Of a stretch of 64,000 bases of DNA, positions 22,062-57,181 are shown one piece after another. Below the pieces are notes generated by a model. The model made no database searches. It worked only from the letters and a program-made list of their open reading frames with translations, and was not told the DNA's origin. A program made the translations under genes and the position numbers. How positions within the stretch are numbered: the stretch's first letter is position 1; each line of letters begins with the position of its first letter. This stretch comes from Polaromonas jejuensis NBRC 106434. Its GTDB lineage: Bacteria; Pseudomonadota; Gammaproteobacteria; Burkholderiales; Burkholderiaceae_C. The DNA lies in contig NZ_BCYO01000011.1 of assembly GCF_001598235.1 (NCBI RefSeq), positions 1-64,000 on the forward strand, in the 5' to 3' direction.

Positions 22062-23219
22062 TTACTTTTTGGCAGCGGCCCCCAGAGGCGGCAGCGTGGC
22101 GACCACTTCCTGCTTGCCGTTCTTCACTTCGATCATGAAGCTCTCACGGTCCAGGTCACCCTTGCTGTCAAACGTCACGTCCATCAGCACGCCAGGCTGG
22201 TCCGCCGCCTTGACCTTGAGGGTGTGCAGCGCGGCCGCCACGGCCTTGCGGTCCAGCTTGCCGGCCTTCTCAATGGCGGCCTTCAGCACATACACGCCGG
22301 AGTAGCCCTTCATGCCGTTGTGGTCCGACACATATTTGTATTCCTTCTCAAACTTGGCGCGGAAGGCGCGGATGGCGGGTAGTGGTGCATCGACCGTCAG
22401 CCCCACGTGGGCGATGGCACCGTTGGCCGCATCGCCAGCCAGATCAATCACCTTCTGGCCGGTCAGGGTGGTTTCACCGATCACGGGCTTGTTCCAGCCC
22501 TGCTTGCGCAACTCGCGCAACAGGCGGGCCGATTCCTCTTCATTGGTATAGGCAAACAGGCCTTCCGCATTGCTCTGCTTGGCACGCAGCACGGCGGCAG
22601 AGAAATCCACCTGACCCGATTCGGTGGAAATTTCCGACAGGATCTTGGTGGGCGAATTGGCCAGGGCCTTCTTGATCATGTCCAGGCCACCCTTGCCGAA
22701 GTCATTGTTCACATAAAGAACGGCAATGCTTTTGAGCTTGGCCTGCTCGCTGATGTAGCGCGCCACCTTGGGCATGGCAGCGGCCTGCGTGAAGCTGGTG
22801 CGAAACACATAGGGATTGCCCTGCTCGGTGATGCTGGCGGCCTCGCCGCCGGTGAAATTGGGCACCTCGGCGCGACGCGATTCGGCCATGCTGACCATGA
22901 TGGAGCCGGAGAACACGGGGCCGAAGATCGCGAAGACGTTGTCGTCAATGGCTTTTTGCGTCAGGCCCTTGGCCACGCCGGGGTTGCTCTGGGTGTCGGT
23001 GGTGACGGACTGGATTTTCTTGCCCAGAATGCCGCCGGTGGCGTTGATCTCCTTGACCGCCAGCTCCACGCCATTCTTGAAGTTGGTGCCCGCCGTGGCG
23101 CCGGCACCGGACAACTCGACAATATTGGCAATCTTGATCACATCCTGGGCAAATGTGACTGTAGCGCCCGCGGCAATTGCGCAAGCAGCTATCAATTTAA
23201 GAGCAAATCGTTTCTTCAT
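22062..23219 (-). CDS. livK: branched-chain-type ABC transporter periplasmic binding protein LivK
   Basis: 385 residues. The signal peptide MKKRFALKLIAACAIAAGAT is followed by VTFAQDVIKIANIVELSGAG, the start of the type I periplasmic-binding fold. GAVGTNFKNGVELAVKEIN-like and ILGKKIQSVTTDTQSNP segments match HAAT family proteins. It captures the substrate for LivHMGF. The signal-peptide codons from residue 6 onward coincide with a copy of the dispersed Comamonad repeat. Ligand not known; quinate, shikimate or an aromatic acid suits the gene neighbourhood. Confidence 0.92.
   Translation of the reverse strand: MKKRFALKLIAACAIAAGATVTFAQDVIKIANIVELSGAGATAGTNFKNGVELAVKEINATGGILGKKIQSVTTDTQSNPGVAKGLTQKAIDDNVFAIFGPVFSGSIMVSMAESRRAEVPNFTGGEAASITEQGNPYVFRTSFTQAAAMPKVARYISEQAKLKSIAVLYVNNDFGKGGLDMIKKALANSPTKILSEISTESGQVDFSAAVLRAKQSNAEGLFAYTNEEESARLLRELRKQGWNKPVIGETTLTGQKVIDLAGDAANGAIAHVGLTVDAPLPAIRAFRAKFEKEYKYVSDHNGMKGYSGVYVLKAAIEKAGKLDRKAVAAALHTLKVKAADQPGVLMDVTFDSKGDLDRESFMIEVKNGKQEVVATLPPLGAAAKK
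23148..23204 (-). repeat. dispersed repeat copy encoding part of the LivK signal peptide
   Basis: Core GCTCTTAAATTGATAGC (minus strand, 23204-23188), then a tail containing TGCTTGCGC and GGGCGCTACAG. It follows the same plan as the other copies: 17-bp core, TGC(T)TGCGC, a variable part, then GGGCTA(A/C)AGGC. It lies wholly in the livK coding region from codon 6. Confidence 0.7.
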
Positions 23220-23260
23220 GGTTGTCTCCTTTAAGGGTTAAAAAATCAATACGAAAAAAA

Positions 23261-24238
23261 TCAGGGGGATACGAGTCGTGCTTCCCCGACTCCCGGGACT
23301 GGAACGCTGGCAGATTGGGCGGTCTGGATGGGCTGGCCTGGGCGCCTGATCTCACCCCGCATGGCGGCCGGATACAGGAGTTCGCGAATAAAGGTGGCGT
23401 CCTTGCGAACGGCTTGCGCCGCCTCGGTGTAGCCGAAAAACGCCAGGTAGTCGGGCGCCTGCTGGACAAGCATTTCAAAGCCGGGCTGCGCCAGCAGATG
23501 GCGTGCCCGAGCCGCCTGCACCAGCGGTGTCGGCTGGTTCTTCATCTGGATGTCCATCACGGCAGCATGCGGGGCCAGCCGCGACACATCGCATGGCAGG
23601 GGATCGCCGGCCTTGAGCCCCAGCGGCGAGGCGTTCACCACCACCTCATAAGCCGACGGGTCGCTGCTGCTCGCGGCCACGATCTGTGTCGTGGGCATCT
23701 GCGTCGCTGCAGCAAGCTGGCTTGCCAGGGCCTGCGCCTTGCCGGGCGCCGGATCGTAGAGCGCAATTGCGGCAGGTGCGCGGCTACCCGCCATCGCCAG
23801 CGCGGCGGCAATGGCAGAAGCGGCGCCACCGGCACCCAGAATCAGCACGCGCCTGCCCGCGTAGGCCACGCCAAAGTAGTCCAGCGACAAGGCAAAGCCC
23901 TTGCCGTCAAACAGCGCGCCTTCAAATTCGCCGGTTGCGTTGCGGCGTATGCCATTGACAGCGCCCGCCACACGGCCAGCGTCGTTGCAGTGCGAGAGCA
24001 AACCCATCACCCGCGATTTGTGCGGAATGGTCAGCAGCATGCCCTTGACGTTTTTGGCCAGAAAGGCGTTGCGCACGAAAGCCTCGATGTCCTGGATGGC
24101 CACATGCACCGGCACCAGCACCGCATTGATGCCCAGCGTCCTGAAGATCAGGTTGAACACCTCGGGCGCCCGCACCTGGGCCACCGGATCGCCGGGGATC
24201 AGATAAACATCGGTCGTGCCCTGAATGGTGGAAAGCAT
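23261..24238 (-). CDS. shikimate/quinate dehydrogenase family protein (AroE-like)
   Basis: 325 residues. The substrate half has TTDVYLIPGDPVAQVRAPEVFN, the catalytic lysine in LLTIPHKSRVMGL (normally TVPHK) and DAGRVAGAVNGIRR. The catalytic Asp is in LFDGKGFALSL, where biosynthetic AroE usually has NTDGxGF. The nucleotide half has RRVLILGAGGAASAIAAALA. It is about 50 residues longer than E. coli AroE with an unusual Pro-rich C-terminus. Located at the head of the catabolic cluster and divergent from an IclR regulator, it is more likely a catabolic quinate or shikimate dehydrogenase than the biosynthetic AroE. Confidence 0.88.
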   Translation of the reverse strand: MLSTIQGTTDVYLIPGDPVAQVRAPEVFNLIFRTLGINAVLVPVHVAIQDIEAFVRNAFLAKNVKGMLLTIPHKSRVMGLLSHCNDAGRVAGAVNGIRRNATGEFEGALFDGKGFALSLDYFGVAYAGRRVLILGAGGAASAIAAALAMAGSRAPAAIALYDPAPGKAQALASQLAAATQMPTTQIVAASSSDPSAYEVVVNASPLGLKAGDPLPCDVSRLAPHAAVMDIQMKNQPTPLVQAARARHLLAQPGFEMLVQQAPDYLAFFGYTEAAQAVRKDATFIRELLYPAAMRGEIRRPGQPIQTAQSASVPVPGVGEARLVSP

Positions 24239-24259
24239 GGGGATGGCGGCCTTGGATGA

Positions 24260-24270
24260 TCGATAATCGA
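24260..24270. promoter_or_regulatory. PcaR/PobR-type operator-like site, copy 1
   Basis: TCGATAATCGA, embedded in ATGATCGATAATCGATTAA, lies 22 bp upstream of the aroE-like start. As I recall it, the binding site of PcaR-type IclR regulators has the core TCGATAATCG. The match plus the adjacent PcaR-like gene supports the call. Confidence 0.6.
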
Positions 24271-24363
24271 TTAATTCAGGTAAATTTCGCCTGAACTTTA
24301 GTGGTTTCTCGTTTGACTTAAAAGCATAAATAAACAGTTTGCGCGATTAACGAACAAAAAAGA

Positions 24364-24373
24364 TCGATGATCG
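24364..24373. promoter_or_regulatory. PcaR/PobR-type operator-like site, copy 2
   Basis: TCGATGATCG, 59 bp upstream of the IclR gene start, within AGATCGATGATCGTACGA. It resembles copy 1 at 24260 with one base changed and would suit autoregulation. The stretch between the copies is AT-rich and contains no gene. Confidence 0.5.
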
Positions 24374-24431
24374 TACGAAACAAGGGTTAGCCCCGGGTTT
24401 TTCCGGCCCGCATCCCCCCAATACTCAAGCC

Positions 24432-25223
24432 ATGACCGCCGCCATCCCGCCCACGCCTGCCCCGCCCGCGCTCGACAAGCGTGACTGGATTGCCGGCCTC
24501 GAAAAGGGCCTGTCCATCATTGAGTGTTTTGACGATGCCAATCCACGCCTGACCGCCAGCCAGGCCGGCGCGCATTGCGGCATGACACGCACGGCGGCGC
24601 GCCGCTACCTGCTGACGCTGGAACATCTGGGCTATGTGGCCAGCGACGGCAAGCTGTTCTGGCTGACGCCGCGCGTGCTCCGGCTGGGCCAGTCTTACCT
24701 GGAATCCGCCCGCCTGCCCCGCATCGTGCAGCCCTTTTTGCAGCGCGTCACGGCCGGCACGCAAGAAAGCGCCTATGTGAGCGTGATGGATGGAGACGAT
24801 GTCGTCTACATCGCGCGCAATGGCTCCACCCGCGCCCTGAACACCGGCTACGTGCTCGGTTCGCGCGTGCAGGCGCAAGTCACGGCCGCCGGTTTGCTGC
24901 TGCTCTCCATGCGGGACCCGGAATCGCTTGAGGAATGGCTGGCCAAGCATCAACTGAAGGCCTACACCTCCTACACCATTGCCAGCAAGGAACGCCTGCG
25001 CATCGAGCTGAAGCGCGTGCGTGCGCAAGGCTGGGCCATGTCCGAGCAGCAGCTGGAACTCAATTACCGCGGCATTGCCGTGCCGCTGCGCGACCGGCAC
25101 GGCGCAATACTGGGGGCCTTGAGTGTGACCATGCCCATGGGCCACGAGTCGAGCGAAGAGGCGGTGGCGCGCGTGCTGTCGGTGCTCAGCGAAACCGCGC
25201 AGGCGATGCGCCACCTGATCTGA
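24432..25223 (+). CDS. IclR-family regulator of the PcaR/PcaU/PobR group
   Basis: 263 residues. The N-terminal helix-turn-helix is at about 20-85: WIAGLEKGLSIIECFDDANP, LTASQAGAHCGMTRTAARRY, LLTLEHLGYVASDGKLFWLT. The effector domain includes VSVMDGDDVVYIARNGSTRA and GIAVPLRDRHGAILGALSVT. The DWIAGLEKGLSIIE start is typical of beta-ketoadipate pathway regulators. It is divergent from the aroE-liv-qui-pca gene set and probably activates it with protocatechuate, quinate or a related effector. The specific effector is inference. Confidence 0.9.
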   Translation: MTAAIPPTPAPPALDKRDWIAGLEKGLSIIECFDDANPRLTASQAGAHCGMTRTAARRYLLTLEHLGYVASDGKLFWLTPRVLRLGQSYLESARLPRIVQPFLQRVTAGTQESAYVSVMDGDDVVYIARNGSTRALNTGYVLGSRVQAQVTAAGLLLLSMRDPESLEEWLAKHQLKAYTSYTIASKERLRIELKRVRAQGWAMSEQQLELNYRGIAVPLRDRHGAILGALSVTMPMGHESSEEAVARVLSVLSETAQAMRHLI

Positions 25224-25281
25224 ACGCTGCGCGCCAAGGCCCCCGCGCCTGACCGTCGCCGGCGTTGCCGCGCCCGTAGTC

Positions 25282-25340
25282 GCTACTGATTCGATAGCTA
25301 CATTCACCCGAATCCATTGGGCCGTAAGGCATTTTCATCA
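25282..25340 (+). repeat. dispersed Comamonad-type repeat, intergenic copy
   Basis: Core GCTACTGATTCGATAGC at 25282-25298; tail continues to GGGCCGTAAGGC then ATTTTCATC. It lies 58 bp after the IclR stop. Same layout as the copies at 59302 and 61022. Confidence 0.75.
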
Positions 25341-25503
25341 ACAACACCCCCCAGGCCGTCACCCGCCCAGTGAGGTCAGCGCGCCGGCCAACGCACTGAT
25401 GAGGGCATGGATGGATGGCTGGCCGGCCTTGCGCCGCCTGCACCTTTGGCGCCAATCCCGCACAATCGCCGCAGCCGACCACAGACCCCATGCAGACCCG
25501 ACG

Positions 25504-25722
25504 CTGGTGCAGCTCGGCCCGGTGAGCGTCACGCCGAAGGCGGTGCTGGCCGCCCTGGCCTGCGTGGCGGCGGCAGCCTGCTATCGCTTTGGCGCGATTT
25601 TCATGCGGCGCGCCACGCTGGCGCACGAGGCCTTGCCGGCCTCCGCCGCGGTGCATGCGAGCGGCACACTCATGCTGGCGATTCCGGCCGGCCTCGCAGC
25701 GTACGGTGAGGACCGCAGATGC
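25504..25722 (+). pseudogene. internal fragment of an EamA/DMT-family transporter
   Basis: The frame reads LVQLGPVSVTPKAVLAALAC then VAAAACYRFGAIFMRRATLA and ASGTLMLAIPAGLAAYGEDR. This resembles the middle of EamA permeases around the sixth to seventh helices (LGP...LS...LGALAC...CYG.AGIY.RR). Neither N-terminal half nor C-terminal helices are present on either side, and the sequence runs into the aroC 3' end. A dead remnant; the call rests on a short similarity remembered by eye. It is the only recognisable content, besides the repeat, of the 525-bp gap between the IclR gene and aroC. Confidence 0.5.
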
Positions 25723-25748
25723 GAGATCGGGGCGCGCCGCAGATTCGT

Positions 25749-26846
25749 TCACATCTTCTGGCGCATGATGTCCGGCGTGCTGACCCGCACATCGGCGTTT
25801 TGCGCGCGCTGCCGCAAGGCATGCTCCATCACCACCAAGGCCAGCATGGCCTCGGCGATCGGCGTGGCGCGAATGCCGACGCAGGGGTCGTGCCGGCCCT
25901 TGGTCACCACCTCGGCGGGCTGGCCGCTGGTGTCAATGGACTGGCGCGGCGTGATGATGGAACTCGTTGGCTTGATGGCGATCGCCACTTCCAGGTCCTG
26001 CCCGGTGCTGATGCCGCCCAGCACACCGCCGGCATTGTTGGACAAAAAGCCTTCCGGCGAGAGCGCATCGCCATGCGTGGTGCCGCGCTGGGTGACGCTG
26101 GCAAAGCCGGCGCCAATCTCGACGCCCTTGACCGCGTTGATGCCCATCATGGCAAAGGCGATGTCGGCGTCCAGCTTGTCAAACAGCGGATCGCCCAGGC
26201 CCACCGGCACGCCCGTGGCCGTGACGCGTATGCGCGCACCGCAGGAGTCGCCGGCCTTGCGCAGCGCGTCCATGTAGGCCTCCAGGTTGGCAACGTCGGC
26301 CACAGGCGCAAAAAGCGGGTTGTGGGCCACATGCTCCCAGGACTCGAAGGGAATCGCGATATCGCCGATCTGCGTCATGCAGCCGCGAAAGCTGGTGCCG
26401 TATTTCTCAAACAGCCACTTCTTGGCCACGGCCCCGGCGGCGACCATGGGCGCCGTCAGGCGGGCCGAGGAACGGCCGCCGCCGCGCGGGTCGCGCAGGC
26501 CGTATTTGTGCAGGTAGGTGTAGTCGGCATGACCGGGCCGGAAGGTCTCCAGGATGTTGCCGTAGTCCTTGCTGCGCTGGTCGGTGTTTTTGATCAAAAG
26601 GCAGATCGGCGTGCCGGTGGTCTTGCCCTGGTACACGCCGGAGAGGATTTCCACCGCGTCGGGTTCGTTGCGCTGGGTCACGTGGCGGCTGGTGCCGGGG
26701 CGGCGGCGGTCCAGATCGCCCTGGATATCGGCCTCGCTGAGCGACATGCCGGGCGGGCAGCCGTCAATCACGCAGCCAATGGCCGGGCCGTGGGATTCAC
26801 CAAAGTTGGTGACTGCGAAAAGGGTTCCAAAGGTATTGCCGCTCAT
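25749..26846 (-). CDS. aroC: chorismate synthase
   Basis: 365 residues. N-terminal [20 protein letters not shown] is the FMN/substrate signature; [20 protein letters not shown] and [20 protein letters not shown] follow; the C-terminal region has [19 protein letters not shown]. It makes chorismate from EPSP with reduced flavin, last step of the shikimate pathway. Standalone between a transporter remnant and a divergent cupin. Confidence 0.96.
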
Positions 26847-26964
26847 AGGCCATGATTATCCCCGACAGCGCCCGGAACCCGTGCAAGGGACTGGCGCCGC
26901 ATCTGGAATGGTTTGTGCTTGCTGCAGCGCACCATTCCTGATGTCCCGATTGAAGGAGCATGCC

Positions 26965-27387
26965 ATGCCGGATCGCACCACCACCGAGTTTTCGCACGTC
27001 AAGCCGGGTAACACGGCGTTTGTCTCCGGTGGCCTGCGCGATTTCTTCCTGTACCGCGACCTCGGCATCGCCGAAGCGACGCACGGAAAAGTCATAGCGC
27101 ACCTGGTCAAGGCAAATTCCGCACCAGAAACGGGCACAGGCTGGCACCGTCATGAGGCAGATTTCCAGATCGTGGTCATGCTCAAGGGCTGGGCCCGCTT
27201 CATGTACGAGGACAAGGAAACCCTGGTCGAGGCCGGCGACGTGGTACATCAGCGCCCCGGCATACGCCACTTCCTGTTTGACTACTCCCCCGACATGGAA
27301 TACCTGGAAATCGTGTCGCCAGCCGACTTCAAGTCTATTGACGTCGAGCCGGTCTGCAATACTCCGCCCCCCACACCATGGAAGTGA
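26965..27387 (+). CDS. cupin-domain protein
   Basis: 140 residues starting MPDRTTTEFSHVK with AAGGAG upstream. The first cupin motif is GTGWHRHEADFQIVVMLKGW (two His and a Glu as metal ligands) and the second LVEAGDVVHQRPGIRHFLFD with the further His. It should bind a metal ion; whether it is a dioxygenase, isomerase or sensor is not determinable. It lies between aroC and a convergent GST gene. Confidence 0.82.
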   Translation: MPDRTTTEFSHVKPGNTAFVSGGLRDFFLYRDLGIAEATHGKVIAHLVKANSAPETGTGWHRHEADFQIVVMLKGWARFMYEDKETLVEAGDVVHQRPGIRHFLFDYSPDMEYLEIVSPADFKSIDVEPVCNTPPPTPWK

Positions 27388-27427
27388 GGCTGGCCCCGAC
27401 GCATGCCGCACTCAAGCCAAGGCCGAT

Positions 27428-28084
27428 TCAGAACTCCGCATCGAGTTCGTCAATATCGTCGGGCTCCTTCCTGGCCGCGGCCACCCATTCCTTCATGGCC
27501 GGCAGGTCCATGATGCGCTTGCCGTAGGCAGCGCAAGCCTTGTCGAGCGGCACGTCATAGGTCAGGAAACGCGTCACCACCGGTGCATACATGGCATCGG
27601 CCACGCAGGGCTGCTGGCCAAACAGGTAGGGGCCGCCGTAGGTGGTCAGGCACTCCGTCCAGATTTCCAGCACGCGGTCGATATCGGCCTGGGCCCGTGA
27701 CCAGACCTTGAAGCCGGGGAAATGCGCCTTGATGTTCATAGGCAAGGATGAGCGCATCGAGGCAAAGCCCGAATGCATCTCGCCGCAAATCGAGCGGCAA
27801 TGCGCCCGCGCCTTGACGTCCGCAGGCAGCAGTTGCGCCTTGGGCTTGATCTCGTTGAGGTATTCGGCGATGGCCAGCGTATCCCACACCTTCACACTGC
27901 CGTGCTGCAGCGACGGCACCCGCATGCTGGAGGAAAGCAGCAGCATTTCGGCCTTCATGGCCGGGTCGTCGGGCGGAATCACCTTTTCCGTGAACTCCAG
28001 GCCCGCGAACCTTGCCAGCAGCCAGCCGCGCAGGGCCCAGGCGCCGTAGTTCTTGCTGCTGATCGTCAGGACGGCTTTGGCCAT
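27428..28084 (-). CDS. glutathione S-transferase family protein
   Basis: 218 residues from MAKAVLTISSKNYGAWALRG; the upstream in-frame extension to 28273 lacks family sequence. SSKNYGAWALRGWLLARFAG and WDTLAIAEYLNEIKPKAQLL (thioredoxin-like half) with VADAMYAPVVTRFLTYDVPL (C-terminal half) mark it as the YfcF/maleylacetoacetate isomerase-like group. A Ser at the N-terminal catalytic position fits. Role unknown; it is unrelated by position to the GST at 3456. Confidence 0.9.
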   Translation of the reverse strand: MAKAVLTISSKNYGAWALRGWLLARFAGLEFTEKVIPPDDPAMKAEMLLLSSSMRVPSLQHGSVKVWDTLAIAEYLNEIKPKAQLLPADVKARAHCRSICGEMHSGFASMRSSLPMNIKAHFPGFKVWSRAQADIDRVLEIWTECLTTYGGPYLFGQQPCVADAMYAPVVTRFLTYDVPLDKACAAYGKRIMDLPAMKEWVAAARKEPDDIDELDAEF

Positions 28085-28252
28085 GAGCGTGCTCCTCAAA
28101 CCGGGAAAGTTGGCCCCCACTATCCATGGGTGCCGGCTCACCTTCGCAAGGGTTGTGCCAACCGGCCACCCCTGCAGCGCAGCACTGGCCCATAACTTGC
28201 CTGCAGCGAGCCCATCCGGGCCACAAGCCCCGCCTTCTATGTCAGGACACCC

Positions 28253-29473
28253 ATGCTTTACCAGGCTTATCAAACCCAGTCCGACCTGATGTCCCCGTTT
28301 CGCCTGCTGGCGCAGTGTGGCAGTGCCGCATTCTGGCTCGGTAAAACGGAAGGCAGCCTTCTGCGCAAACTGTCGGCGGCCATGGAGGTTTTCTCACGCC
28401 TGCGGCTCACCCATTCCCGGCCGGCCTACGGCATCTCCACGGTGAAAGTGGACGAACACGAACTCGCGGTGACAGAGGAAATCATTCTGTCCCTGCCCTT
28501 TGGCACCCTGCTGCGCTTCAAAAAGGAAGAGGCCCCAGGCCGGCCTTACCAGCCTGCGGTGCTGCTGGTGGCGCCGCTGTCGGGCCACTTTGCCACGCTG
28601 CTGCGCGAAACCGTGCGCACCCTGCTGCAGGACCACGACGTCTACATCACCGACTGGCACAACGCGCGCGACGTGCCGCTACACCATGGGGCGTTTGGCC
28701 TTGATGACTACATCGGGCACATGATCCGCTTCATCCAGGCCGTCGGCCCGGACACCCACGTCATAGCGGTGTGCCAGCCCTGCGTGGCCGTGCTGGCCGC
28801 CACCGCCATCATGGCGGAAGACGACGACCCGGCCCAGCCACGCAGCCTGACGCTGATGGCCGGCCCCGTGGACTGCCGGGTGAACCCCACTGCGGTCAAC
28901 CAGCTGGCCACCAGCAAACCGATCGACTGGTTCGAGACAAACCTGATCAGCCATGTGCCCCTGCCGCACGCCGGCCACATGCGCCGCGTCTATCCCGGCT
29001 TTGTCCAGGTCAGCGCCTTTCTCTGCATGAACCTGGAACGCCACAAGAAGTCGTTCCAGGACATGTACCGCTACCTGGTGGACGGCGAGGTGGACAAGGC
29101 CGACGTGATCCGCATGTTTTATGACGAGTACCTTGCGGTGAACGATTTACCGGCCGAGTTCTACCTGGAAACGGTGGAAAAGGTGTTCCAGACCTACGAC
29201 CTGGCCCGGGGCAAACTCGGCTTCCGCGGACGCATCGTGAACCCCGCGGCGATACGCCGCACGGCGCTGATGACGGTAGAGGGTGAGCGCGACGACATCT
29301 GCGCCGTCGGCCAGACCGTGGCCGCTCAAGACCTTTGCAGCAGCATCCGCCCGTACATGAAGACCCACCATATCCAGACAGGTGTGGGGCATTACGGGGT
29401 GTTCAGCGGGCGCAAATGGAACCAGCAGATCTACCCGCGGGTGCGGGAGATGATTCACGCCAGCGCAGGATAA
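28253..29473 (+). CDS. phaZ: intracellular polyhydroxyalkanoate (PHB) depolymerase
   Basis: 406 residues, the usual size of the PhaZa1 family. MLYQAYQTQSDLMSPFRLLA is the characteristic start. The lipase-box-like segment HVIAVCQPCVAVLAATAIMA supplies the nucleophilic Cys, and the C-terminal half carries VGHYGVFSGRKWNQQIYPRV with the probable catalytic His. It releases 3-hydroxybutyrate from native granules in the cytoplasm. Monocistronic here, divergent from the GST. Confidence 0.94.
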   Translation: MLYQAYQTQSDLMSPFRLLAQCGSAAFWLGKTEGSLLRKLSAAMEVFSRLRLTHSRPAYGISTVKVDEHELAVTEEIILSLPFGTLLRFKKEEAPGRPYQPAVLLVAPLSGHFATLLRETVRTLLQDHDVYITDWHNARDVPLHHGAFGLDDYIGHMIRFIQAVGPDTHVIAVCQPCVAVLAATAIMAEDDDPAQPRSLTLMAGPVDCRVNPTAVNQLATSKPIDWFETNLISHVPLPHAGHMRRVYPGFVQVSAFLCMNLERHKKSFQDMYRYLVDGEVDKADVIRMFYDEYLAVNDLPAEFYLETVEKVFQTYDLARGKLGFRGRIVNPAAIRRTALMTVEGERDDICAVGQTVAAQDLCSSIRPYMKTHHIQTGVGHYGVFSGRKWNQQIYPRVREMIHASAG

Positions 29474-42503: not shown

Positions 42504-42562
42504 GCTATGTTTTTAATAGCAGCTTGCGGCCAATGCATAAGGGCTTGACCCGGATTTCTTCA
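42504..42562 (+). repeat. dispersed repeat copy, intergenic
   Basis: Core GCTATGTTTTTAATAGC at 42504-42520; tail AGCTTGCGGCCAATGCATAA then GGGCTTGACCCGGATTTCTTC. Lies in the 344-bp gap between the patatin gene and thyA, which otherwise shows nothing recognisable. Confidence 0.75.
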
Positions 42563-44151: not shown

Positions 44152-44748
44152 ATGTCAGAAGGCGGATTTCACGTACACGGGCCACACGACCATGAGCTGG
44201 AGCATGCGGCCCAGGGCGGGCATGGCGCTCACGAGAATGGTGGCGGCGGCATGATCGCGCAGATCGCCGTCATCACGGCCATCATCGCCACCGTAGGCGC
44301 GATCTTTTCGTATATGGGCGGCGCCACGCAAGCCAATGCCGGCCTGTACAAAAACAACGCATCCATCAAAAAGACCGAAGCGGCCAACCAGTGGGCCTTC
44401 TACCAGGCCAAGAGCACCAAGCAGTCGCTGGCCGAATTTGCCCGCGACTTGGCGCCCGAAGATAAAAAGGCCGGCTACCAGGGCAGGGTTGATCGCTACG
44501 ACAAGGAAAAGAGCGAGATCAAGGTGGTTGCCGAAAAGCTGGAAAGCGAGGCCACAGCCTGGGACAAGTCCTCCGACGAGCAGATGCACCAGCACCACCG
44601 CTGGGCGCAAGCCACCACGGTGCTGCAGGTTTCCATTGCCCTGGCGGCAATTGCACTGCTGACACGCAAGAAGTGGCTGGAGTACGGGATGTTCGCGCTG
44701 GCCGGTGTGGGCCTGGCGCTGGGCGCCCTGGCTTGGCTACATATTTGA
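44152..44748 (+). CDS. DUF4337 membrane protein
   Basis: 198 residues. A His-rich start (GFHVHGPHDHELEHAAQGGH) precedes a helix (AQIAVITAIIATVGAIFSYM), a charged coiled-coil-like middle (KKTEAANQWAFYQAKSTKQS, KEKSEIKVVAEKLESEATAW) and two C-terminal helices. This is the DUF4337 arrangement; function unknown. One base after folA, so cotranscribed. Its stop codon TGA is inside the core of a dispersed repeat. Confidence 0.87.
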   Translation: MSEGGFHVHGPHDHELEHAAQGGHGAHENGGGGMIAQIAVITAIIATVGAIFSYMGGATQANAGLYKNNASIKKTEAANQWAFYQAKSTKQSLAEFARDLAPEDKKAGYQGRVDRYDKEKSEIKVVAEKLESEATAWDKSSDEQMHQHHRWAQATTVLQVSIALAAIALLTRKKWLEYGMFALAGVGLALGALAWLHI

Positions 44749-44791
44749 TAGCAACTTATGCCCGTTCTTACTGGGCTGGAGCCCCGAAACC
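44736..44791 (+). repeat. dispersed repeat copy at the DUF4337/xth junction
   Basis: Core GCTACATATTTGATAGC at 44736-44752, tail AACTTATGCCCGTTCTTACT then GGGCTGGAGCCCCGAAACC, ending one base before the xth ATG. It supplies the DUF4337 stop and the 5' leader of xth, including the only candidate ribosome site (GGGCTGGAG). Confidence 0.75.
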
Positions 44792-45568
44792 ATGAAAATT
44801 GCCACCTGGAACGTTAATTCACTGGCGGTGCGGCTGCCGCAGGTACTGGACTGGCTCGCCGCCAATCCGGTCGATGCGCTGTGCCTGCAGGAGCTCAAGC
44901 TCAGCGACGAGAAGTTCCCCCTCAAAGAGCTGGAAGCGGCGGGTTACCAGAGCGCGGTATTTGGCCAGAAAACCTACAACGGCGTGGCCATTTTGAGCCG
45001 CACGCCGGCACGCGACGTGGTGAAGAACATCACCGGCTTCGCCGACGAGCAGTCGCGCGTGATTTCCGCCACGCTGGACACGCCCCAGGGCGAACTGCGC
45101 GTGATCAATGGCTACTTCGTCAATGGACAGGAGCCGGGCAGCGAGAAGTTCGCCTACAAGATGCGCTGGCTGGACGCGCTGCGCGAGCAGGTGCGCGCGG
45201 AGCTCGCGGCGCATCCGAGGCTGGTGCTGCTGGGCGACTTCAACGTCGCACCTGAAGACCGCGATTCCTACGATCCCGAGGGCCTGCGCGAAACCATTCA
45301 TCACACGACGCAGGAGCGCGACCACTTCAAGGCGCTGCTGGGGCTGGGCCTGATTGACGCCTTCCGGCTGTTCGAGCAGCCCGCGAAGAGCTACTCGTGG
45401 TGGGACTACCGCATGCTCGGCTTCCAGAAGAACCGCGGCCTGCGCATCGACCATATACTCGTGAGCGACGCCCTCAAGCCGCTCGTCAAGGCCTGCGTCA
45501 TTGACCGCGTTCCGCGCAAGAACAAGCAACCTAGCGATCACGCACCGGTGATCGCCGAGTTCACCTAG
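44792..45568 (+). CDS. xth: exodeoxyribonuclease III
   Basis: 258 residues from MKIATWNVNSLAVRLPQVLD. LCLQELKLSDEKFP holds the metal Glu, GVAILSRTP, VLLGDFNVAPEDRDSYDPEG the Asp/Asn pair, LRIDHILVSDALKP and SDHAPVIAEF the catalytic Asp/His. Complete set for an AP endonuclease/3'-5' exonuclease in DNA repair. Its TAG stop uses the first base of the next dispersed repeat. Confidence 0.95.
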   Translation: MKIATWNVNSLAVRLPQVLDWLAANPVDALCLQELKLSDEKFPLKELEAAGYQSAVFGQKTYNGVAILSRTPARDVVKNITGFADEQSRVISATLDTPQGELRVINGYFVNGQEPGSEKFAYKMRWLDALREQVRAELAAHPRLVLLGDFNVAPEDRDSYDPEGLRETIHHTTQERDHFKALLGLGLIDAFRLFEQPAKSYSWWDYRMLGFQKNRGLRIDHILVSDALKPLVKACVIDRVPRKNKQPSDHAPVIAEFT

Positions 45569-45620
45569 CTATAAAAACAATAGCTTCTTTCGACCGTAGT
45601 ACAAGAGCTACAGCCCAGAT
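45568..45620 (+). repeat. dispersed repeat copy between xth and ntrC
   Basis: Core GCTATAAAAACAATAGC at 45568-45584, tail TTCTTTCGACCGTAGTACAA then GAGCTACAGCCCAGATTCA. It fills exactly the space between the convergent stops of xth and ntrC, providing the last base of the xth stop. Confidence 0.75.
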
Positions 45621-50485: not shown

Positions 50486-50544
50486 CAGAATCTCCTGTTG
50501 CTGGATGGTTGGTTGAATGAGAAATTGTTTGCAGGTCTGCTGAA

Positions 50545-50717: not shown

Positions 50718-50722
50718 ATGAG

Positions 50723-51547
50723 TTATCGCACCAATTCAGGGCCAAATTTGAGATCGAATCGGCGCAGCCCCGCCAGCAAGGCCGGATAGGCCTGGTTGAC
50801 GGCTTCTGGTGCGCCTTTCACGCCCAGCTCGATGTGACGGCCAAATTCAGGGTGGTCCACGCTCGGCAGGCTGAACACCTTGACACCCGAATGGGCCGCC
50901 TCAATTTCGAGCATCAGCGGTGTCAGCATGGCCTCCATGGAACCAAAAATGATCACCGACTTTTCGGCGTAGGCCAGCTTTTGGTGCAAATGGGCGTAGT
51001 GCTTGTCGAGTACCCACGCCATCATGGGCCAGGCCATGACCGGAAAACCCGGCACGAAATGCACCGCGCCAGCCCCGGCGTAGCAGCTAAAGCCGGGAAT
51101 CTTGTTGTAGGGGTTGGGAATGATGGCGGCGCCCAGCGGAAACACGCCCATGTTCAGGCGATGGATGTTGTCATGGCGGTCGGGCTCGTAAGGCATGCCC
51201 TGCTCCTTGGCCACATCCTGCATGCGCTCATGGATCAGCGCCTCGGCCTCGGGGTGCAGCACCAGTTCAAGCCCCAGCGCCTGGGCCGCGCACTGGCGCG
51301 TATGGTCATCCGGCGTGGCGCCTATGCCGCCGCAGGAAAACACCACATCGCCCGATTCACGCGCCGCCGCAAAGGCCCGCGCCAAGGTGGCGGTGATGCG
51401 GGCCGGATCGTCGCCCACATAGTCGGCATAGGCCAGCGACAGGCCGCGCGCGCCCAGCAGTTCAATGGCCTTTGGCAGGTGCTTGTCGGCACGTTTGCCC
51501 GAGAGGATTTCGTCGCCGATGATGATGAGGCCAAAATGTGTGCTCAT
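50723..51547 (-). CDS. molybdopterin-binding CinA N-terminal domain-like protein
   Basis: 274 residues. FGLIIIGDEILSGKRADKHL and GDVVFSCGGIGATPDDHTRQ match the MoCF-biosynthesis (MogA/CinA N-terminal) fold, and KIPGFSCYAGAGAVHFVPGF is the second conserved region of CinA-type proteins. The nicotinamide mononucleotide deamidase C-terminal domain of full CinA is absent. Stand-alone forms are of uncertain role. Confidence 0.85.
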   Translation of the reverse strand: MSTHFGLIIIGDEILSGKRADKHLPKAIELLGARGLSLAYADYVGDDPARITATLARAFAAARESGDVVFSCGGIGATPDDHTRQCAAQALGLELVLHPEAEALIHERMQDVAKEQGMPYEPDRHDNIHRLNMGVFPLGAAIIPNPYNKIPGFSCYAGAGAVHFVPGFPVMAWPMMAWVLDKHYAHLHQKLAYAEKSVIIFGSMEAMLTPLMLEIEAAHSGVKVFSLPSVDHPEFGRHIELGVKGAPEAVNQAYPALLAGLRRFDLKFGPELVR

Positions 51548-51573
51548 AAGGTCAGTCCTGATAGCTTGGTGGA

Positions 51574-52476
51574 CTAGGGCCGCGGATCGGGCTTGCCGTC
51601 CAGCGAACCGAAACGCGGCGCCGGCTCATTCGCTATTGAATTTATAGCATCCTGCGCAAGCGGATCGGACACAAGGCCGCCATTTTCCTTGCGCAGCTGC
51701 TCCAGCGCGGCCAGCGTGTAATGGGTAAACCAAAGCGAGGAAAAGGCAAACACCAGGGTGTAGATCCAGATCGCCACCGGCACAAGAATCGGCGCCATGG
51801 CCACAAACATGGCGCCCGACGCCCAGATCAGGCTGGGGGCCGCACCCAGGTAACCGCTGAGCACGCCAATGATCAGCAGCGGCACGCGGTTCTCCTTGAA
51901 AATCCGGCGCCGCTCCTCAGCGCTCGCATGTTCCACCAGCGCGTCATAGGACATGACACGGTAGGTGAGCCAGCCCCAGATCAGGGGCGGCAGGACCAGA
52001 ATCAGCGGCGGCACCAGCCACAGCGGAATCGACACCAGCAGCGCAACAATGGCCAGCGCGGTCGAGCCGAGCGACCAGAACAGGCTGGTCAGCAGCGAGC
52101 CGCCTTTTTTGCGCTCCAGCCCCGCAAAGCGCCGCTCGGCCACCAGGGCCACCATGGCCGGCGTCATGAACACTGCGACAAACAGCAGCGAGGCAATCAC
52201 GATCACCGGAATCGCCAGAAACAGCAGCAGCGCAGGCGCCAGCACCAGGCGCAGGCTGCTCAGCCCCAGCCCTTCCAGCCAGTGCACCATGGCGCCCACC
52301 AGTTCGTAGCTTTCCAGATTGCTGCGCACCATGGCCAGCGCGTCTTCCCAGAAAAAATAACCCAGGCCCAGCGAAAGCGCCGCCATGATGATGAGGGGCA
52401 GGACGGACAGGGCGATGACGCGGGGATGCAGGCAGTACATCGCCGCCCGCCAGAAGGAGTCGAGGAGCAGATTCAT
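51574..52476 (-). CDS. EI24-domain membrane protein (CysZ-like)
   Basis: 300 residues. Starts MNLLLDSFWRAAMYCLHPRV and has about four to five hydrophobic segments (IALSVLPLIIMAALSLGLGY, LVLAPALLLFLAIPVIVIAS, VALLVSIPLWLVPPLILVLP, APILVPVAIWIYTLVFAFSS). The EI24 family includes the sulfate permease CysZ, but this group in Burkholderiales is uncharacterised. The last 28 residues (from AQDAINSIANEP) are encoded within and after a dispersed repeat. Confidence 0.82.
   Translation of the reverse strand: MNLLLDSFWRAAMYCLHPRVIALSVLPLIIMAALSLGLGYFFWEDALAMVRSNLESYELVGAMVHWLEGLGLSSLRLVLAPALLLFLAIPVIVIASLLFVAVFMTPAMVALVAERRFAGLERKKGGSLLTSLFWSLGSTALAIVALLVSIPLWLVPPLILVLPPLIWGWLTYRVMSYDALVEHASAEERRRIFKENRVPLLIIGVLSGYLGAAPSLIWASGAMFVAMAPILVPVAIWIYTLVFAFSSLWFTHYTLAALEQLRKENGGLVSDPLAQDAINSIANEPAPRFGSLDGKPDPRP
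51632..51685 (+). repeat. dispersed repeat copy inside the EI24 gene C-terminus
   Basis: Core GCTATTGAATTTATAGC at 51632-51648, tail ATCCTGCGCAAGCGGATCGG then CACAAGGCCGCC. Read antisense it encodes LAQDAINSIANE of the EI24 protein, so the repeat is maintained as coding sequence. Confidence 0.7.
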
Positions 52477-52722
52477 GCGACAAGCATAACCCGATCACCC
52501 GGCTGTCAAGCGGCTTGTACTCACGCTTGAAACGGCCACTGAGCTCACGATGGTTTTGTCAAATTGACGTGCAGACCCAGCGGTGTCTTTTTTAGGGGGC
52601 TTCCCTTGAAAAAAGTAGGGCTGGCATTCCGGCCGCATGGAGTAATGTGAGCCAGCGGGGCAAACAAATCGCAGCCGCCATCGGTTTATGGCGCGCGCCC
52701 AATGACACCCAGGAGCATAGCC

Positions 52723-54600
52723 ATGGCCACAAACAAACAAGTCGAAGCCGCGACCCGTTTGCGGCGCGCAATTCTCGAGGCAAAGCTCACCAGGCACGAA
52801 CTGTTGCAGCTGGGGTTGTTGACCGCCGGCGGCATGCTGATCGCCGCGAAGGGACTCAGTGCGCGCGCCGATGGCGGCGGCCAGCTTGCCAGTCCATTCA
52901 CTCAGCCCTTCGTCGAGGAAATGCCCATCCCCAGGGTCAAGGAGCCGATCGATCGTGCGCAACTCACGCCGACGGACAGGCCGCCCACGATCGAACCGAA
53001 CAACGAACTGGGAGGCCACCCGCAGCGTTTTCCGAATGAACCGGTCGAAGGCCGCACTCGCACGCACCAGCGCTTCAATGAGTTCCCCCCTCAACGCTTT
53101 TACGAGCTGCACGAGCGCGAGGCGGACTGGAGCTTCCATCGGGACTTGCCATTGAACAAGATCTGGGGCTTCGATGGCGTCTTCCCGGGGCCGTTGTTCC
53201 TGGCGCGCTATGGCAAGCCGATTTTGGTACGCATTCACAATGACCTGCCGCAGGACCACAGGGGTTTCGGCATGCCTTCAACGAGCACCCATCTGCACAA
53301 TGGGCACACACCGTCCGAGAGCGACGGCTTCCCGGGCGATTTTTTCCCCATCTTCAGCACGCTGCCCGACGGCTGCGGGCCGTCCAAGGCCACGCCCAAC
53401 GCTTTGTGGTACGACCACCACTACCCCAATATCTATGCCGGTTACGACCAGTTTCCGGAAACCGGAGGCGATCCGCGCCAAGCCCTGGGCACGCTGTGGT
53501 ACCACGACCACCGTATGGACTTCACCGCGCAGAACACCTACAAGGGGCTGGCCGGCATGTACCTGTTGTTCGATGCGCTCGATTCGGGCGACGAAAACGA
53601 CACGGGTCCCGGCTTGCGTCTGCCCGACGGCAGGCAGCTCGCGCCGCTGCGCCTGCCTGCCGGAGACTACCGCAACCCGCGGCAGCTGTATGACGTGCCG
53701 GTGGTTCTTGCCGACAAGGCGTTCGACCAGGATGGCCAACTGTTCTTCGACATGTTCAACTTCGGCGGCATTCTCGGAGACAAGTTCACGGTCAATGGCA
53801 AGATCCAGCCCTTCTTCCGGGTGGCGCGCCGCAAGTACCGCTTGCGCGTGCTGAACACGGGACCGTCGCGCTTCTACCAGCTGTTCCTTACCGACAGCAA
53901 CGGGAAGGAACTGCCGTTCACCGTCATCGCCAACGACGGCAACCTGCTGCCGGCGCCCGTCACCGTCACGAGTGTCAAGCTCGCCGTCGCCGAGCGCATG
54001 GACATCATCGTGGATTTCGATGAAGTGCTGAAGCGATCCGGGGGCAAGATGGGTGATGCGTTCTATCTGGTGAACCGGCTCCAACAGCTTGACGGGCGTG
54101 GCCCGACCGACAAACTGCTCAATCCCGGGGACAGGATCCTCAAGCTCATCGTGGACCGTGCGGCCAGCGATCCAAGCCAGGTTCCCGAGACCTTGCGGCC
54201 GCTGCCGCCTCTGCCCAGGTTTCCCGACCGGCTGCCGCAACGTACGGTGGTACTGAATCGCGACAGGGGCATGTGGACCATCAACGGCCAGATCTTCAAT
54301 GTCTGTCAGCCGGCGTTCACGGTGCAGCAAGGTGTGCCAGAGGTCTGGACCATGAAGAACGGGGGCGGCGGCTGGTCACACCCGAATCACATCCACTTCG
54401 AGGAGGGCCGCATCCTCTCGTACAACGGCCGGCCGCCGATCCCGATCGAGAGCGGCCGCAAGGACATGGTCCGCCTCGACCCGAACGCCGAAGTCAGGTT
54501 TTTCATCCAGTTTCGCGACTTCACGGGCCGCTATGTGGCGCACTGCCACAACGTCCTGCACGAGGACCACGCGATGATGACCCGCTTCGACATCGACTAA
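52723..54600 (+). CDS. multicopper oxidase (CotA-like)
   Basis: 625 residues from MATNKQVEAATRLRRAILEA with CAGGAGC upstream. All four copper clusters are visible: HLHNGHTPSESDGFPG, LWYHDHRMDF, HPNHIHFEEGRILS and HCHNVLHEDHAMM (T1 Cys with axial Met). A Tat-like leader (LTRHELLQLGLLTAGGML) has RH instead of RR. Closest in design to CotA/bilirubin-oxidase-type enzymes, which oxidise phenols, bilirubin or Mn(II). Followed 41 bp later by an SCO-like gene, suggesting copper delivery. Confidence 0.92.
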   Translation: MATNKQVEAATRLRRAILEAKLTRHELLQLGLLTAGGMLIAAKGLSARADGGGQLASPFTQPFVEEMPIPRVKEPIDRAQLTPTDRPPTIEPNNELGGHPQRFPNEPVEGRTRTHQRFNEFPPQRFYELHEREADWSFHRDLPLNKIWGFDGVFPGPLFLARYGKPILVRIHNDLPQDHRGFGMPSTSTHLHNGHTPSESDGFPGDFFPIFSTLPDGCGPSKATPNALWYDHHYPNIYAGYDQFPETGGDPRQALGTLWYHDHRMDFTAQNTYKGLAGMYLLFDALDSGDENDTGPGLRLPDGRQLAPLRLPAGDYRNPRQLYDVPVVLADKAFDQDGQLFFDMFNFGGILGDKFTVNGKIQPFFRVARRKYRLRVLNTGPSRFYQLFLTDSNGKELPFTVIANDGNLLPAPVTVTSVKLAVAERMDIIVDFDEVLKRSGGKMGDAFYLVNRLQQLDGRGPTDKLLNPGDRILKLIVDRAASDPSQVPETLRPLPPLPRFPDRLPQRTVVLNRDRGMWTINGQIFNVCQPAFTVQQGVPEVWTMKNGGGGWSHPNHIHFEEGRILSYNGRPPIPIESGRKDMVRLDPNAEVRFFIQFRDFTGRYVAHCHNVLHEDHAMMTRFDID

Positions 54601-54641
54601 ACCGGCGCGTCGCATTGGCGCACGGCGATGAAAGGAGTTGA

Positions 54642-55256
54642 ATGATGGACAGGCGAACAGCGCTGACCTGGAGTCTGGTTTCGGGCGCAGTGGGCGGGCT
54701 CAGCGCGGCCACACCGAAACCGTTCGCCGCTGCTGCCGCCCGCGGGCCGCGCGCCGACTTCTTTCCCAATGTGACGCTGCGCACCCACGACAACCAGCCG
54801 GTGCGCTTCTATGACGATCTCATCCACGGCAAAATCGTCGTGCTGAGCTTCATGGTGGCGCTCTGCACCGACGGACTGTGTCCACTGCAGACCCACAACC
54901 TGGTGCAGGTCCAGAAACTCCTGGGCGAAAGCGTGGGCCGCGAGATCTTCATCTACTCGATCACGCTGCAGCCCGAACTGGACACCCCGAAAATGCTTCA
55001 GCGTTACGCGCAGGCGTTCGGCATCAAGCCGGGATTCTGGCTGCTCACCGGCAAGCCCGCAGACATCGAACTGCTGCGCCGCAAGCTGGGCTACGTCGAC
55101 CTGGACCCGGTGGTGGACGCCGACAAGACCCAGCACACCGGCATGCTGCGCTATGGAAACGAGGCACTCGACCGCTGGGGCGCCTGCCCGGCGCTGATGA
55201 ACCCGCAGCAGATCGCCCAATACATCCTGTGGATGGAGCCGCCGGGCAAGGCATGA
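54642..55256 (+). CDS. SCO1/SenC-like copper chaperone-type protein
   Basis: 204 residues beginning MMDRRTALTWSLVSGAVGGL, a twin-Arg-like signal. Thioredoxin-fold core: VVLSFMVALCTDGLCPLQT holds the cysteine pair, but with four residues between (CTDGLC) where SCO proteins have three (CxxxCP). The distal His of the copper site is kept in DADKTQHTGMLRYGN. Its gene follows the multicopper oxidase, so it may load copper into that enzyme rather than cytochrome oxidase. Confidence 0.82.
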   Translation: MMDRRTALTWSLVSGAVGGLSAATPKPFAAAAARGPRADFFPNVTLRTHDNQPVRFYDDLIHGKIVVLSFMVALCTDGLCPLQTHNLVQVQKLLGESVGREIFIYSITLQPELDTPKMLQRYAQAFGIKPGFWLLTGKPADIELLRRKLGYVDLDPVVDADKTQHTGMLRYGNEALDRWGACPALMNPQQIAQYILWMEPPGKA

Positions 55257-55319
55257 GGCGACGGGACTGTTCCTTGTCTGCTGTCGGTGCGCCGGGGCGG
55301 TGTCCACGCCACCGGACGG

Positions 55320-56291
55320 TCAGCGCCTGCCCGCCAGCCGCTTCACGCCCAGCCACTGCTGCATCCAGAATCCGTCTCCGTAGTTGCGCACCCGCCCGTC
55401 GGCATCCGGCTCGACCTGGTCACGCACGCCGGTGGGGTCATAGCGCTGTTCAAAATTGGCCGTCCCGAACAGCATGTCCCACCAGGGCAGCAAAATCCCA
55501 AAGTTATGCCCACCCAGGGTTTTGGGGCCGTGGCTCTCGTGCCCAATCCCGATGCTGTGATGCAGCCGGTGAAAGCGCGGGCTGACCCACAGGCGCTCCC
55601 CGATGGAGCCAAACCACAGCCGCACGTTGGCGTGCTGAAAGCTTTCGCTGAGCTGGGTGAAGGCCACGATGGCAACGAACTGGCCGGGCGCCACGCCGAT
55701 GAACTGCGCCACCAGCACGACGATGGAGTCCAGCAGGATGTCATCGAGCAGGTGGTTGCGGTTGTCGCTCCACATCGTCATTTGCCGCTGGGCGTGGTGC
55801 AGCGAATGCAGGCGCCACCACCACTGCAGCTGGTGCTGGCCGCGGTGCGTCCAGTAGGCCACGAAGTCAAAAACCACCAGGTAGATCGCAAAGCTGACCA
55901 GCGCGTTGTCGGTCACGCCGGGCCAGATCTGGTCGAGGTGAAAAGTGCCGTAGCCGGCGGTGCGCAGCGCGCCAAAGGCCTCGTCAAACCAGGGGTCCAG
56001 CGTGAAAAACAGCGCGATGCGGAACAGGCCCAGCCGGTGAATCAGGGTGTAAAGCACATCGGTGCGGATGGTGGCGCGGTCCTTCACCGCTTCCACCGGG
56101 CGCCAGCGCTGCAGCGGGCCGATGACGGCCAGCAGGATGATGATCTGGATCACGCCCGCCATGAACCAGGCCGTGGCCTCGTAAGCGTCTTCCAGCAGGC
56201 TGCCCATGCCGAGCGCAAACATCGCCGGCTGCACGGCGGTTTCAAACAACCACTGCTGCACCATCGCGTAAATATGAGTGAATCCGTCCAT
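55320..56291 (-). CDS. sterol desaturase/fatty acid hydroxylase family protein
   Basis: 323 residues with several membrane helices. The eight-His di-iron motifs are visible: AYWTHRGQHQLQWWWRLHSL then HSLHHAQRQM, and FHRLHHSIGIGHESHGPKTL with GGHNFG. It hydroxylates or desaturates a lipid or sterol-like substrate in the membrane. Its start lies 5 bp after the polysaccharide deacetylase stop, so the two are probably cotranscribed. Confidence 0.9.
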   Translation of the reverse strand: MDGFTHIYAMVQQWLFETAVQPAMFALGMGSLLEDAYEATAWFMAGVIQIIILLAVIGPLQRWRPVEAVKDRATIRTDVLYTLIHRLGLFRIALFFTLDPWFDEAFGALRTAGYGTFHLDQIWPGVTDNALVSFAIYLVVFDFVAYWTHRGQHQLQWWWRLHSLHHAQRQMTMWSDNRNHLLDDILLDSIVVLVAQFIGVAPGQFVAIVAFTQLSESFQHANVRLWFGSIGERLWVSPRFHRLHHSIGIGHESHGPKTLGGHNFGILLPWWDMLFGTANFEQRYDPTGVRDQVEPDADGRVRNYGDGFWMQQWLGVKRLAGRR

Positions 56292-56296
56292 AAGTC

Positions 56297-57181
56297 CTAT
56301 TTTGCAGGCTGTGCCGGCACACGGCTGGTGTGCGCTTCAATCCAGGCCTGGTACTGGGGGTGTTCGCGCAGGGTCTGGAAGCAAAAGCCGCGCGACTGCA
56401 GGCCGCTGATCAGCGGCTCCAGCACGGCCGGCGCCCAGGCGTCCTTGCGCGACCAGATGCCCAGGTGCGCCAGCAAGATGTCGCCGGGCTGGATGTCACG
56501 CAAGGCCTTTTTCAGCAGCATGTCGTTGGGGTATTTGTCACTGGGCAATTCGTCGCCCAAAAAGCCGGCCGGTGACCAGCCCACATGCTCGTAACCACAG
56601 GACCTGGCGGCCGCCAGCAACTGCGGCGAGGTTTTGCCGCCCGGCGCGCGAAACAGCGGCAGTGGCTTTTTGCCGGTGATTTCTTCCAGCCGGGCGCTGG
56701 ATTTGCCGATCTCTTCACAGTACTGCCTGGCTGTCCAGGTGAATTCCTTGCCTTCCGAGGGCCCGGCCGAAGGGCGAATACGGAACTGCGGCGGCGCGCC
56801 GGGAACGTCGGCGCGCCAGTAGCTGTGGTCCCAGGTGTGCGAGGCAAACTCGTGGCCTTCGGCGGCGCGCGCCTTCCACCACCCGGCCCAGTACGTGCCC
56901 AGGCTGCCGTCGCCGGTCTGGGTGCGCTCGTTGGCGGCAAAAAAGGTCACCCTGACCTGGTGTTTTTTCAGCACCTCCGCGATCAGCGGGGCCACCGCCA
57001 TGTGGCCGGTGTCCAGGGTCAGGTAGACCGGCTTGCAGGCGGCTGCAACGGGCTGCACCGCGCTTTGTGCGGAATTTTGCGTCGCTTTTTTCGCATCATT
57101 CTGGCCTGTAGCCCATGCAGGATGCGCATAAGCAGCTACTAAAACAATAGCAAGGAGCGGCCGTAGCGAACCTACAGTCAA
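56297..57181 (-). CDS. secreted polysaccharide deacetylase
   Basis: 294 residues if translated from a TTG at 57181, giving LTVGSLRPLLAIVLVAAYAH then PAWATGQ as signal peptide; the frame upstream crosses a palindromic repeat and is not family-like, so the start is uncertain. The NodB fold has VYLTLDTGHMAVAPLIAEVL (first Asp), EFASHTWDHSYWRADVPG (HxxxH zinc ligands) and LPLFRAPGGKTSPQLLAAAR. It removes acetyl groups from an N-acetylated glycan in the periplasm. The signal-peptide codons are a dispersed-repeat copy. Confidence 0.83.
   Translation of the reverse strand: MTVGSLRPLLAIVLVAAYAHPAWATGQNDAKKATQNSAQSAVQPVAAACKPVYLTLDTGHMAVAPLIAEVLKKHQVRVTFFAANERTQTGDGSLGTYWAGWWKARAAEGHEFASHTWDHSYWRADVPGAPPQFRIRPSAGPSEGKEFTWTARQYCEEIGKSSARLEEITGKKPLPLFRAPGGKTSPQLLAAARSCGYEHVGWSPAGFLGDELPSDKYPNDMLLKKALRDIQPGDILLAHLGIWSRKDAWAPAVLEPLISGLQSRGFCFQTLREHPQYQAWIEAHTSRVPAQPAK
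57095..57151 (-). repeat. dispersed repeat copy encoding the deacetylase signal peptide
   Basis: Core on the minus strand GCTATTGTTTTAGTAGC (57151-57135) followed by TGCTTATGCGCATCCTGCAT and GGGCTACAGGCC. Same orientation and same codon phase relative to the gene as the livK copy. Confidence 0.75.

Follow-up and report, generated by a model that had tools for sequence, protein, structure and literature searches.

How did two unrelated genes come to have their predicted signal peptides written in copies of the same DNA repeat? The question is raised by a 64,000-nt stretch of Polaromonas jejuensis NBRC 106434 (contig NZ_BCYO01000011.1, positions 1 to 64,000; hereafter the window), in which a repeat of about 52 nt, here called the motif, lies within the signal peptide of a livK-type periplasmic binding protein and within that of a polysaccharide deacetylase. 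The motif is spread across the genome, mostly in intergenic regions and also within genes. The reading that we favour, with even confidence, is that it resembles an uptake sequence, is specific to a lineage and often settles in place, with signal peptides as a permissive site for it. If so, a non-coding process would influence protein sequence at a foreseeable site, namely the export signal.

Two motif copies in predicted signal peptides

The livK-type gene (22062..23219, minus strand; Peripla_BP_6 by Pfam) carries a 52-nt motif copy at 23153..23204, and the deacetylase gene (56297..57181, minus strand; Polysacc_deac_1 by Pfam) carries one of the same length at 57100..57151. Both copies lie on the minus strand, within the signal peptide, and are read in sense frame 0, just as the preliminary description of this DNA had placed them. 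In livK the minus-strand sequence GCTCTTAAATTGATAGCTGCTTGCGCAATTGCCGCGGGCGCTACAGTCACAT runs from 23204 down to 23153, starting 15 nt past the A of the ATG (23219), and translates as ALKLIAACAIAAGATVT; the deacetylase copy, GCTATTGTTTTAGTAGCTGC...GGGCTACAGGCCAGA, runs from 57151 down to 57100 and translates as AIVLVAAYAHPAWATGQ. R1, a covariance model trained on 28 copies, gives 40.9 bits (window E value 2.2e-8) for the livK copy, which lies outside the training set, and 52.8 bits for the deacetylase copy, itself one of the 28 training rows. A matrix built from 53 intergenic copies of the source genome, with neither gene in its training, gives 33.8 bits for livK and 50.0 bits for the deacetylase, and the maxima reached in 1000 synonymous recodings of each N-terminus are 18.1 and 34.4 bits, respectively.

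No ATG is present near the signal peptide in the deacetylase frame, and the gene caller placed the start downstream, at 57058; the likely start is a TTG at 57181 (MTVGSLRPLL-AIVLVAAYAHPAWA). Many deacetylase homologues have a signal-peptide-like stretch at the same place as the motif copy, and the best match among named relatives (85%) is that of Polaromonas sp. OV174. Directly upstream of the motif copy lies a second, GC-rich repeat-like stretch (57160-57330; CCCCCCGAGGGGGCCGCTGCGCCTGCGGCCC...CCGCGGCCCCTGCTTGA), which appears to provide the TTG start; similar stretches precede the deacetylase gene in several Polaromonas loci.

Motif DNA in other export signals

The source genome (G000; 5.13 Mb in 79 contigs) was sampled over 864 kb (17%), and eight genes in this sample, picked by eye from the in-frame copies with the deacetylase added, have motif DNA in a predicted export signal or membrane anchor. 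All have Pfam support. The motif is read in sense frame 0 in livK, the deacetylase, GspD, an HlyD/CusB-type membrane-fusion protein and a DUF1775-PCuAC protein, and lies on the other strand in BamB, TctC and a PBP-like binding protein. A charged start and a hydrophobic core are present in all eight peptides by a crude rule, with the cleavage region judged by eye, and the N-terminus of the membrane-fusion protein looks like an anchor.

Could this be a coincidence, in which AT-rich codons at gene starts resemble the repeat? AT-rich hydrophobic, alanine-rich peptides do need GCT/ATA/TTG-like codons. However, not one of 1000 synonymous recodings per gene reaches the observed score in any of the eight genes, which excludes codon chance, and 5 of the 749 called N-termini score at least 15 bits, against 0 of 14,980 recoded ones. 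Moreover, 400 kb sampled from G060, a family member whose genome is motif-free, contain no match; at 70% GC against 62% here, this control is imperfect. We regard coincidence as barely credible.

Export signals hold 8 of the 45 in-frame copies in the source genome, whereas their expected share is 1.4% of the coding sequence, or 3% on a generous estimate (p 2e-7 to 5e-5); the 45 omit six frames extended upstream (84150, 206759, 44736, 70601, 41920, 173989), with which the count becomes 8 of 51. In two other motif-rich genomes, sampled over 400 kb each, no clear signal-peptide case was found among the 23 in-frame copies of G015 or the 16 of G071, from which 8 and 5 upstream-extended rows, respectively, are likewise omitted. 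Pooling the three genomes gives 8 of 84 (p 3e-5 to 0.004), and the source genome differs from the other two (p 0.006). Because G015 and G071 gave none, the excess is established for the source genome alone, where these counts support the view that a genome-wide motif favours predicted export signals among coding sites. The proposal that motif DNA encodes predicted export signals extends from two genes to eight, and the excess that it implied is present in the source genome, with no clear case in the samples of the other two. By simple scaling, eight export signals in 17% of the genome would correspond to perhaps some 45 in all.

Structure and genomic distribution of the motif

The motif is degenerate and consists of the core GCTAT-N7-ATAGCTGC, then TGCGC, then a genus-specific stem. 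By the intergenic-only matrix its information amounts to about 51 bits, spread across 52 positions. The source genome contains 92 sites within 3 mismatches of the 20-nt core and none for the reversed pattern, and at least 150 R1 matches (150 of 4203 candidates scored). At a threshold of more than 15 bits the matrix finds 127 copies in the 864 kb of the source genome, 111 in G015, 41 in G071 and 0 in G060, dialects of other genera being under-detected by a matrix trained on the source genome; reversed sequences give 0 copies in all four. One motif is thus strongly overrepresented in the genome, as uptake sequences are.

Genes and signal peptides were called with crude scripts of our own, and many of the G071 gene calls look spurious. 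On these calls, 76 of the 127 copies in the source genome lie outside open frames of called genes and 51 inside, 10 of the latter only after upstream extension of the called start. Matches above 15 bits within called genes number 41 in G000, 23 in G015 and 16 in G071, compared with 1-6, 0-1 and 1-2, respectively, in five within-gene synonymous permutations.

Selection might instead act on a hairpin at gene ends, RNA or terminator-like, with the overlap of the next gene's signal peptide as a by-product. The placement of the intergenic copies in the source genome (n=75) agrees with this: gaps between tandem genes hold 39, those between convergent genes 28 (against 71 of 448 gaps of at least 52 nt) and those between divergent genes 8, and 24 of the 39 tandem copies are closer to the upstream 3' end. 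The 3' stem is also genus-specific, its sequence differing among the copies of G000, G015 and G071 in a dialect-like manner with the core kept. However, the 5' palindrome, in which compensatory changes had seemed plausible by eye, shows no covariation above shuffles, only pairs 28-38 and 29-37 of the 3' stem stand out in the source genome, weakly, and copies lie deep within genes in both orientations. We therefore consider a selected hairpin very unlikely.

Reading frames

The preliminary description had taken the shared frame of livK and the deacetylase to suggest that repeat insertion can create or replace a signal peptide. Both copies are indeed in frame 0, but this common frame is largely forced by stop codons. 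A sense-strand reading of the 53 intergenic copies is open in 38 cases in frame 0, in 20 in frame 2 and never in frame 1; the opposite-strand frames are open in 2, 19 and 31. Because stops close most alternatives, the use of frame 0 in two sense-strand genes is no strong coincidence. In the consensus, frame 0 translates as AINLIAACARPSWAGGL, a sequence suited to signal peptides and anchors, and the commonest open opposite-strand frame spells RPPAHEGRAQAAIKLI, which occurs in soluble enzymes among others.

Motif-rich and motif-poor genomes

Orthologues were compared between motif-rich genomes, defined by our own cut of at least 10 core copies, and motif-poor ones; some counts come from incomplete genomes, the same genomes recur between genes, and the contrasts are not phylogenetically independent. 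The loci used were 17 of 30 for livK, 29 of 30 for GspD, 28 of 30 for the membrane-fusion gene, 29 of 30 for LigA and 30 of 30 for the CCA transferase. At 10 bits or more the motif is present in 57 of 177 rows (GspD 11/29, membrane-fusion gene 6/28, livK 6/17, deacetylase 34/103), near-duplicates included (L126/L170, L111/L156, L115/L159; one of each was removed for the deacetylase tree only). All 57 motif-bearing N-termini are in sense frame 0, in a search confined to the open frame, where stop-bearing frames could not appear.

The motif DNA form occurs mainly in motif-rich genomes. For the four export-signal genes, in counted genomes and with our own included, the motif is found in 33 of 55 rows from motif-rich genomes and 2 of 49 from motif-poor ones. 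The same threshold gives 15 of 17 against 0 of 12 genomes for LigA, and 13 of 14 against 1 of 16 for the CCA transferase. Among deacetylases named as Polaromonas, 16 of 19 carry the motif, which is absent from JS666, CF318 and one metagenome-assembled genome. Such presence and absence among closely related species makes the colonisation of coding DNA directly testable.

The same residues encoded without repeat-like DNA, an outcome that the preliminary description had taken to speak against its proposal, are found for livK in three of nine motif-poor genomes (L083 MQKRFALKLIAT, L084, L081), where the residues are similar; the other six have unrelated signal peptides. A LIAACA-like peptide occurs in livK orthologues whether or not they have motif DNA and was not seen in more distant ones. 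Scores are clearly bimodal in GspD and the membrane-fusion gene, and intermediates occur in the deacetylase (L114 -7, L115 2 and L116 13 bits), for which reason bimodality was dropped as a proof of insertion. On gene trees, the distribution of the motif needs 3 state changes in GspD, 3 in the membrane-fusion gene, 4 in the weakly resolved livK tree (1 forced by starred branches) and 14 in the deacetylase tree (4 forced), counts that do not separate gain from loss.

The intermediate deacetylase scores and the shared LIAACA-like peptide would both be expected from old ancestral insertions, inherited vertically, whose motif-like DNA is a decaying remnant that lives longer in some lineages. Such insertions leave unexplained the retention of motif DNA mainly in motif-rich genomes, as well as the copies, described below, that sit without gaps in conserved parts of LigA and PurK, and we hold this explanation to be improbable.

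Insertion or change in place

The preliminary description suggested that insertion of the repeat can create or replace a signal peptide, which would make the motif a mobile element similar to repetitive extragenic palindromic (REP) sequences or miniature inverted-repeat transposable elements (MITEs), with frame-0 insertions near gene starts. As a general account this is not supported by the alignments. The livK copy is gap-free against five orthologues that all score below 10 bits (L081, L083, L084, L086 and L087, the first three from motif-poor genomes), and the membrane-fusion gene is gap-free between motif-bearing rows and orthologues without the motif (L303/L304 against L305/L307, L308 against L317). 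Six in-gene enzyme copies of our choosing were compared with solved structures, and the alignments of LigA, PurK and PurD run across the motif without a gap; of the 29 LigA rows, our own included, 28 have no gap and the other has one of a single residue. For livK, the membrane-fusion gene and LigA, these alignments fit settling in place better than insertion. Repeat DNA inside a signal peptide thus need not have arrived by insertion and, in the closely comparable cases, the motif often seems to reshape existing export signals rather than clearly create them. Of the eight signal-peptide genes, the orthologue comparison covered four (livK, GspD, the membrane-fusion gene and the deacetylase), and for the deacetylase it does not separate insertion from change in place.

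Several observations weigh against settling in place and against a motif that tracks its genome. DapE is longer by about 18-21 residues precisely where an antisense motif copy lies (L069:1894-3126, G000 C5:202894), and the CCA transferase and AroA keep their conserved core in place, followed by about 5-12 extra residues. For 21 interior copies an orthologue is available from another sample (39-76% identity, gap placement being uncertain at this level): in 8 the orthologue lacks at least 5 residues at the copy, in 6 it lacks 1-4 and in 7 none, 3 of the 7 being gap-free on both sides. In addition, two motif-poor genomes carry the motif (L278, L122), 11 of 17 membrane-fusion rows from motif-rich genomes are without it, and livK of G064, a genome with 154 copies, scores only 0 bits. 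Finally, known uptake sequences are about 9-12 bp long (PMC2346458), whereas the motif is highly degenerate over about 52 nt and has no comparably short core.

In the CCA transferase (L363-L392), the motif core overlaps the conserved stretch RRDLTIN-(S/A)-(I/M)-A. The extra residues after the core are present in most of the motif-rich members of the genus, and the motif-poor L370 has the residues and no motif DNA.

Since gap-free copies (livK, membrane-fusion gene, LigA, PurK, PurD) and insertion-like copies (DapE, 8 of the 21 interior ones) both occur, the mode of arrival in genes, as judged from these alignments, is mixed: the gap-free alignments contradict insertion as the sole mode, and DapE and others contradict change in place as the sole mode. 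Insertion is seen in other genes, such as DapE. A mobile element would agree with the high, mostly intergenic copy number, with the insertion-like copies, with the patchy distribution across the trees (GspD and the membrane-fusion gene with at least 3 changes each, the deacetylase with 14), and with a review that counts Polaromonas among MITE-bearing bacteria, citing the genome of Polaromonas sp. JS666 (PMC10969869). On the other hand, besides the five gap-free genes, the sole Y1/RAYT-type transposase gene of the source genome (RAYT, REP-associated tyrosine transposase; the single PF01797 match, L139, C6:194670-194996) has no R1 match within its 3.3-kb locus. We rate a mobile element as the source of the signal peptides as rather unlikely.

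A motif possibly favoured genome-wide

Uptake-biased transformation is the best-known process that favours a motif throughout a genome, and to our knowledge uptake sequences are not known in this bacterial group. In the explanation that we favour, such a process, whether uptake-sequence-like or some other drive or selection with a sequence bias, would pull tolerant coding DNA toward the motif. One stop-poor frame spells A-I-x-L-I-A-A-x-A, and hydrophobic, alanine-rich signal peptides and anchors would therefore be among the most permissive coding sites; their codons, and in part their residues, would become written in motif DNA. In a genome that loses the motif, the signal peptide would remain and its codons would drift off. 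More broadly, and only tentatively, Comamonadaceae-type bacteria may have an undescribed, long, self-favouring motif with genus dialects, one that rewrites coding DNA in place, including that of conserved enzymes, and forms the coding text of many export signals.

Comparison with known repeats

By its distribution the motif is uptake-sequence-like. The uptake signal sequences of Pasteurellaceae and the DNA uptake sequences of Neisseriaceae have copy numbers from hundreds to thousands and lie both between genes and in coding DNA; reading frames favour one of the two orientations, and in Pasteurellaceae the copies are biased toward gene ends (PMC2346458). They also have lineage dialects (PMC3630211). 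Coding copies without length change, as for uptake sequences, are seen in PurK, PurD, LigA, livK and the membrane-fusion gene and not in DapE or the eight interior copies. Because a 52-nt motif is unlike the known uptake sequences, membership among them is not claimed. Our literature search found no paper joining DNA uptake sequences with Comamonadaceae.

The motif also resembles the GTAG/CGTC REPs, short palindrome-bearing repeats near gene 3' ends, some of them intragenic and N-terminal (PMC3733652), and its preference for tandem and convergent gaps is that of RAYT-associated REPs. Unlike these, no copy lies near a RAYT-type gene, and some copies within genes sit in place without any insertion; the lack of RAYT linkage rules out this class. 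A covarying hairpin, typical of REPs, is not found in the 5' palindrome; covariation in the 3' stem is weak within the genome, and this stem differs between genera. The main text of the REP study (PMC3733652) names none of Acidovorax, Comamonas, Polaromonas, Delftia or Variovorax, and no paper on palindromic intergenic repeats of Comamonadaceae was found in our search.

Rickettsia palindromic elements and other in-frame MITEs are likewise short repeats that lie within open frames encoding unrelated proteins (PMC3733652, PMC10969869). The former are described as insertions of about 150 bp (PMC10969869), whereas gap-free and insertion-like cases both occur here: in-frame lengthening is seen in DapE and 8 of the 21 interior copies and not in LigA, PurK or PurD. 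The JS666 MITE mentioned in the review is from the same genus and may or may not belong to this motif family. We found no paper on repetitive elements exapted as bacterial signal peptides, though the repeat itself may already have been described for JS666, and none on motif-encoded export signals among the titles listed for signal peptides and REP elements.

Other repeats in the window

Beyond livK and the deacetylase, the window contains seven more R1 copies at E < 0.01, all on the plus strand, and one overlapping opposite-strand partial match. Intergenic copies lie at 25282..25333, 42504..42555, 59302..59353 (between convergent genes) and 61022..61073. Two others are at gene ends, one overlapping the end (44736..44787) and one weak (45568..45619, 29.5 bits), and a partial copy is antisense within a gene (51632..51657, 21.1 bits). 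The window has no Rfam match at the gathering threshold. A separate direct repeat pair of 114 nt, 96% identical, is present at 7957-8070 and 9813-9926, 1.86 kb apart.

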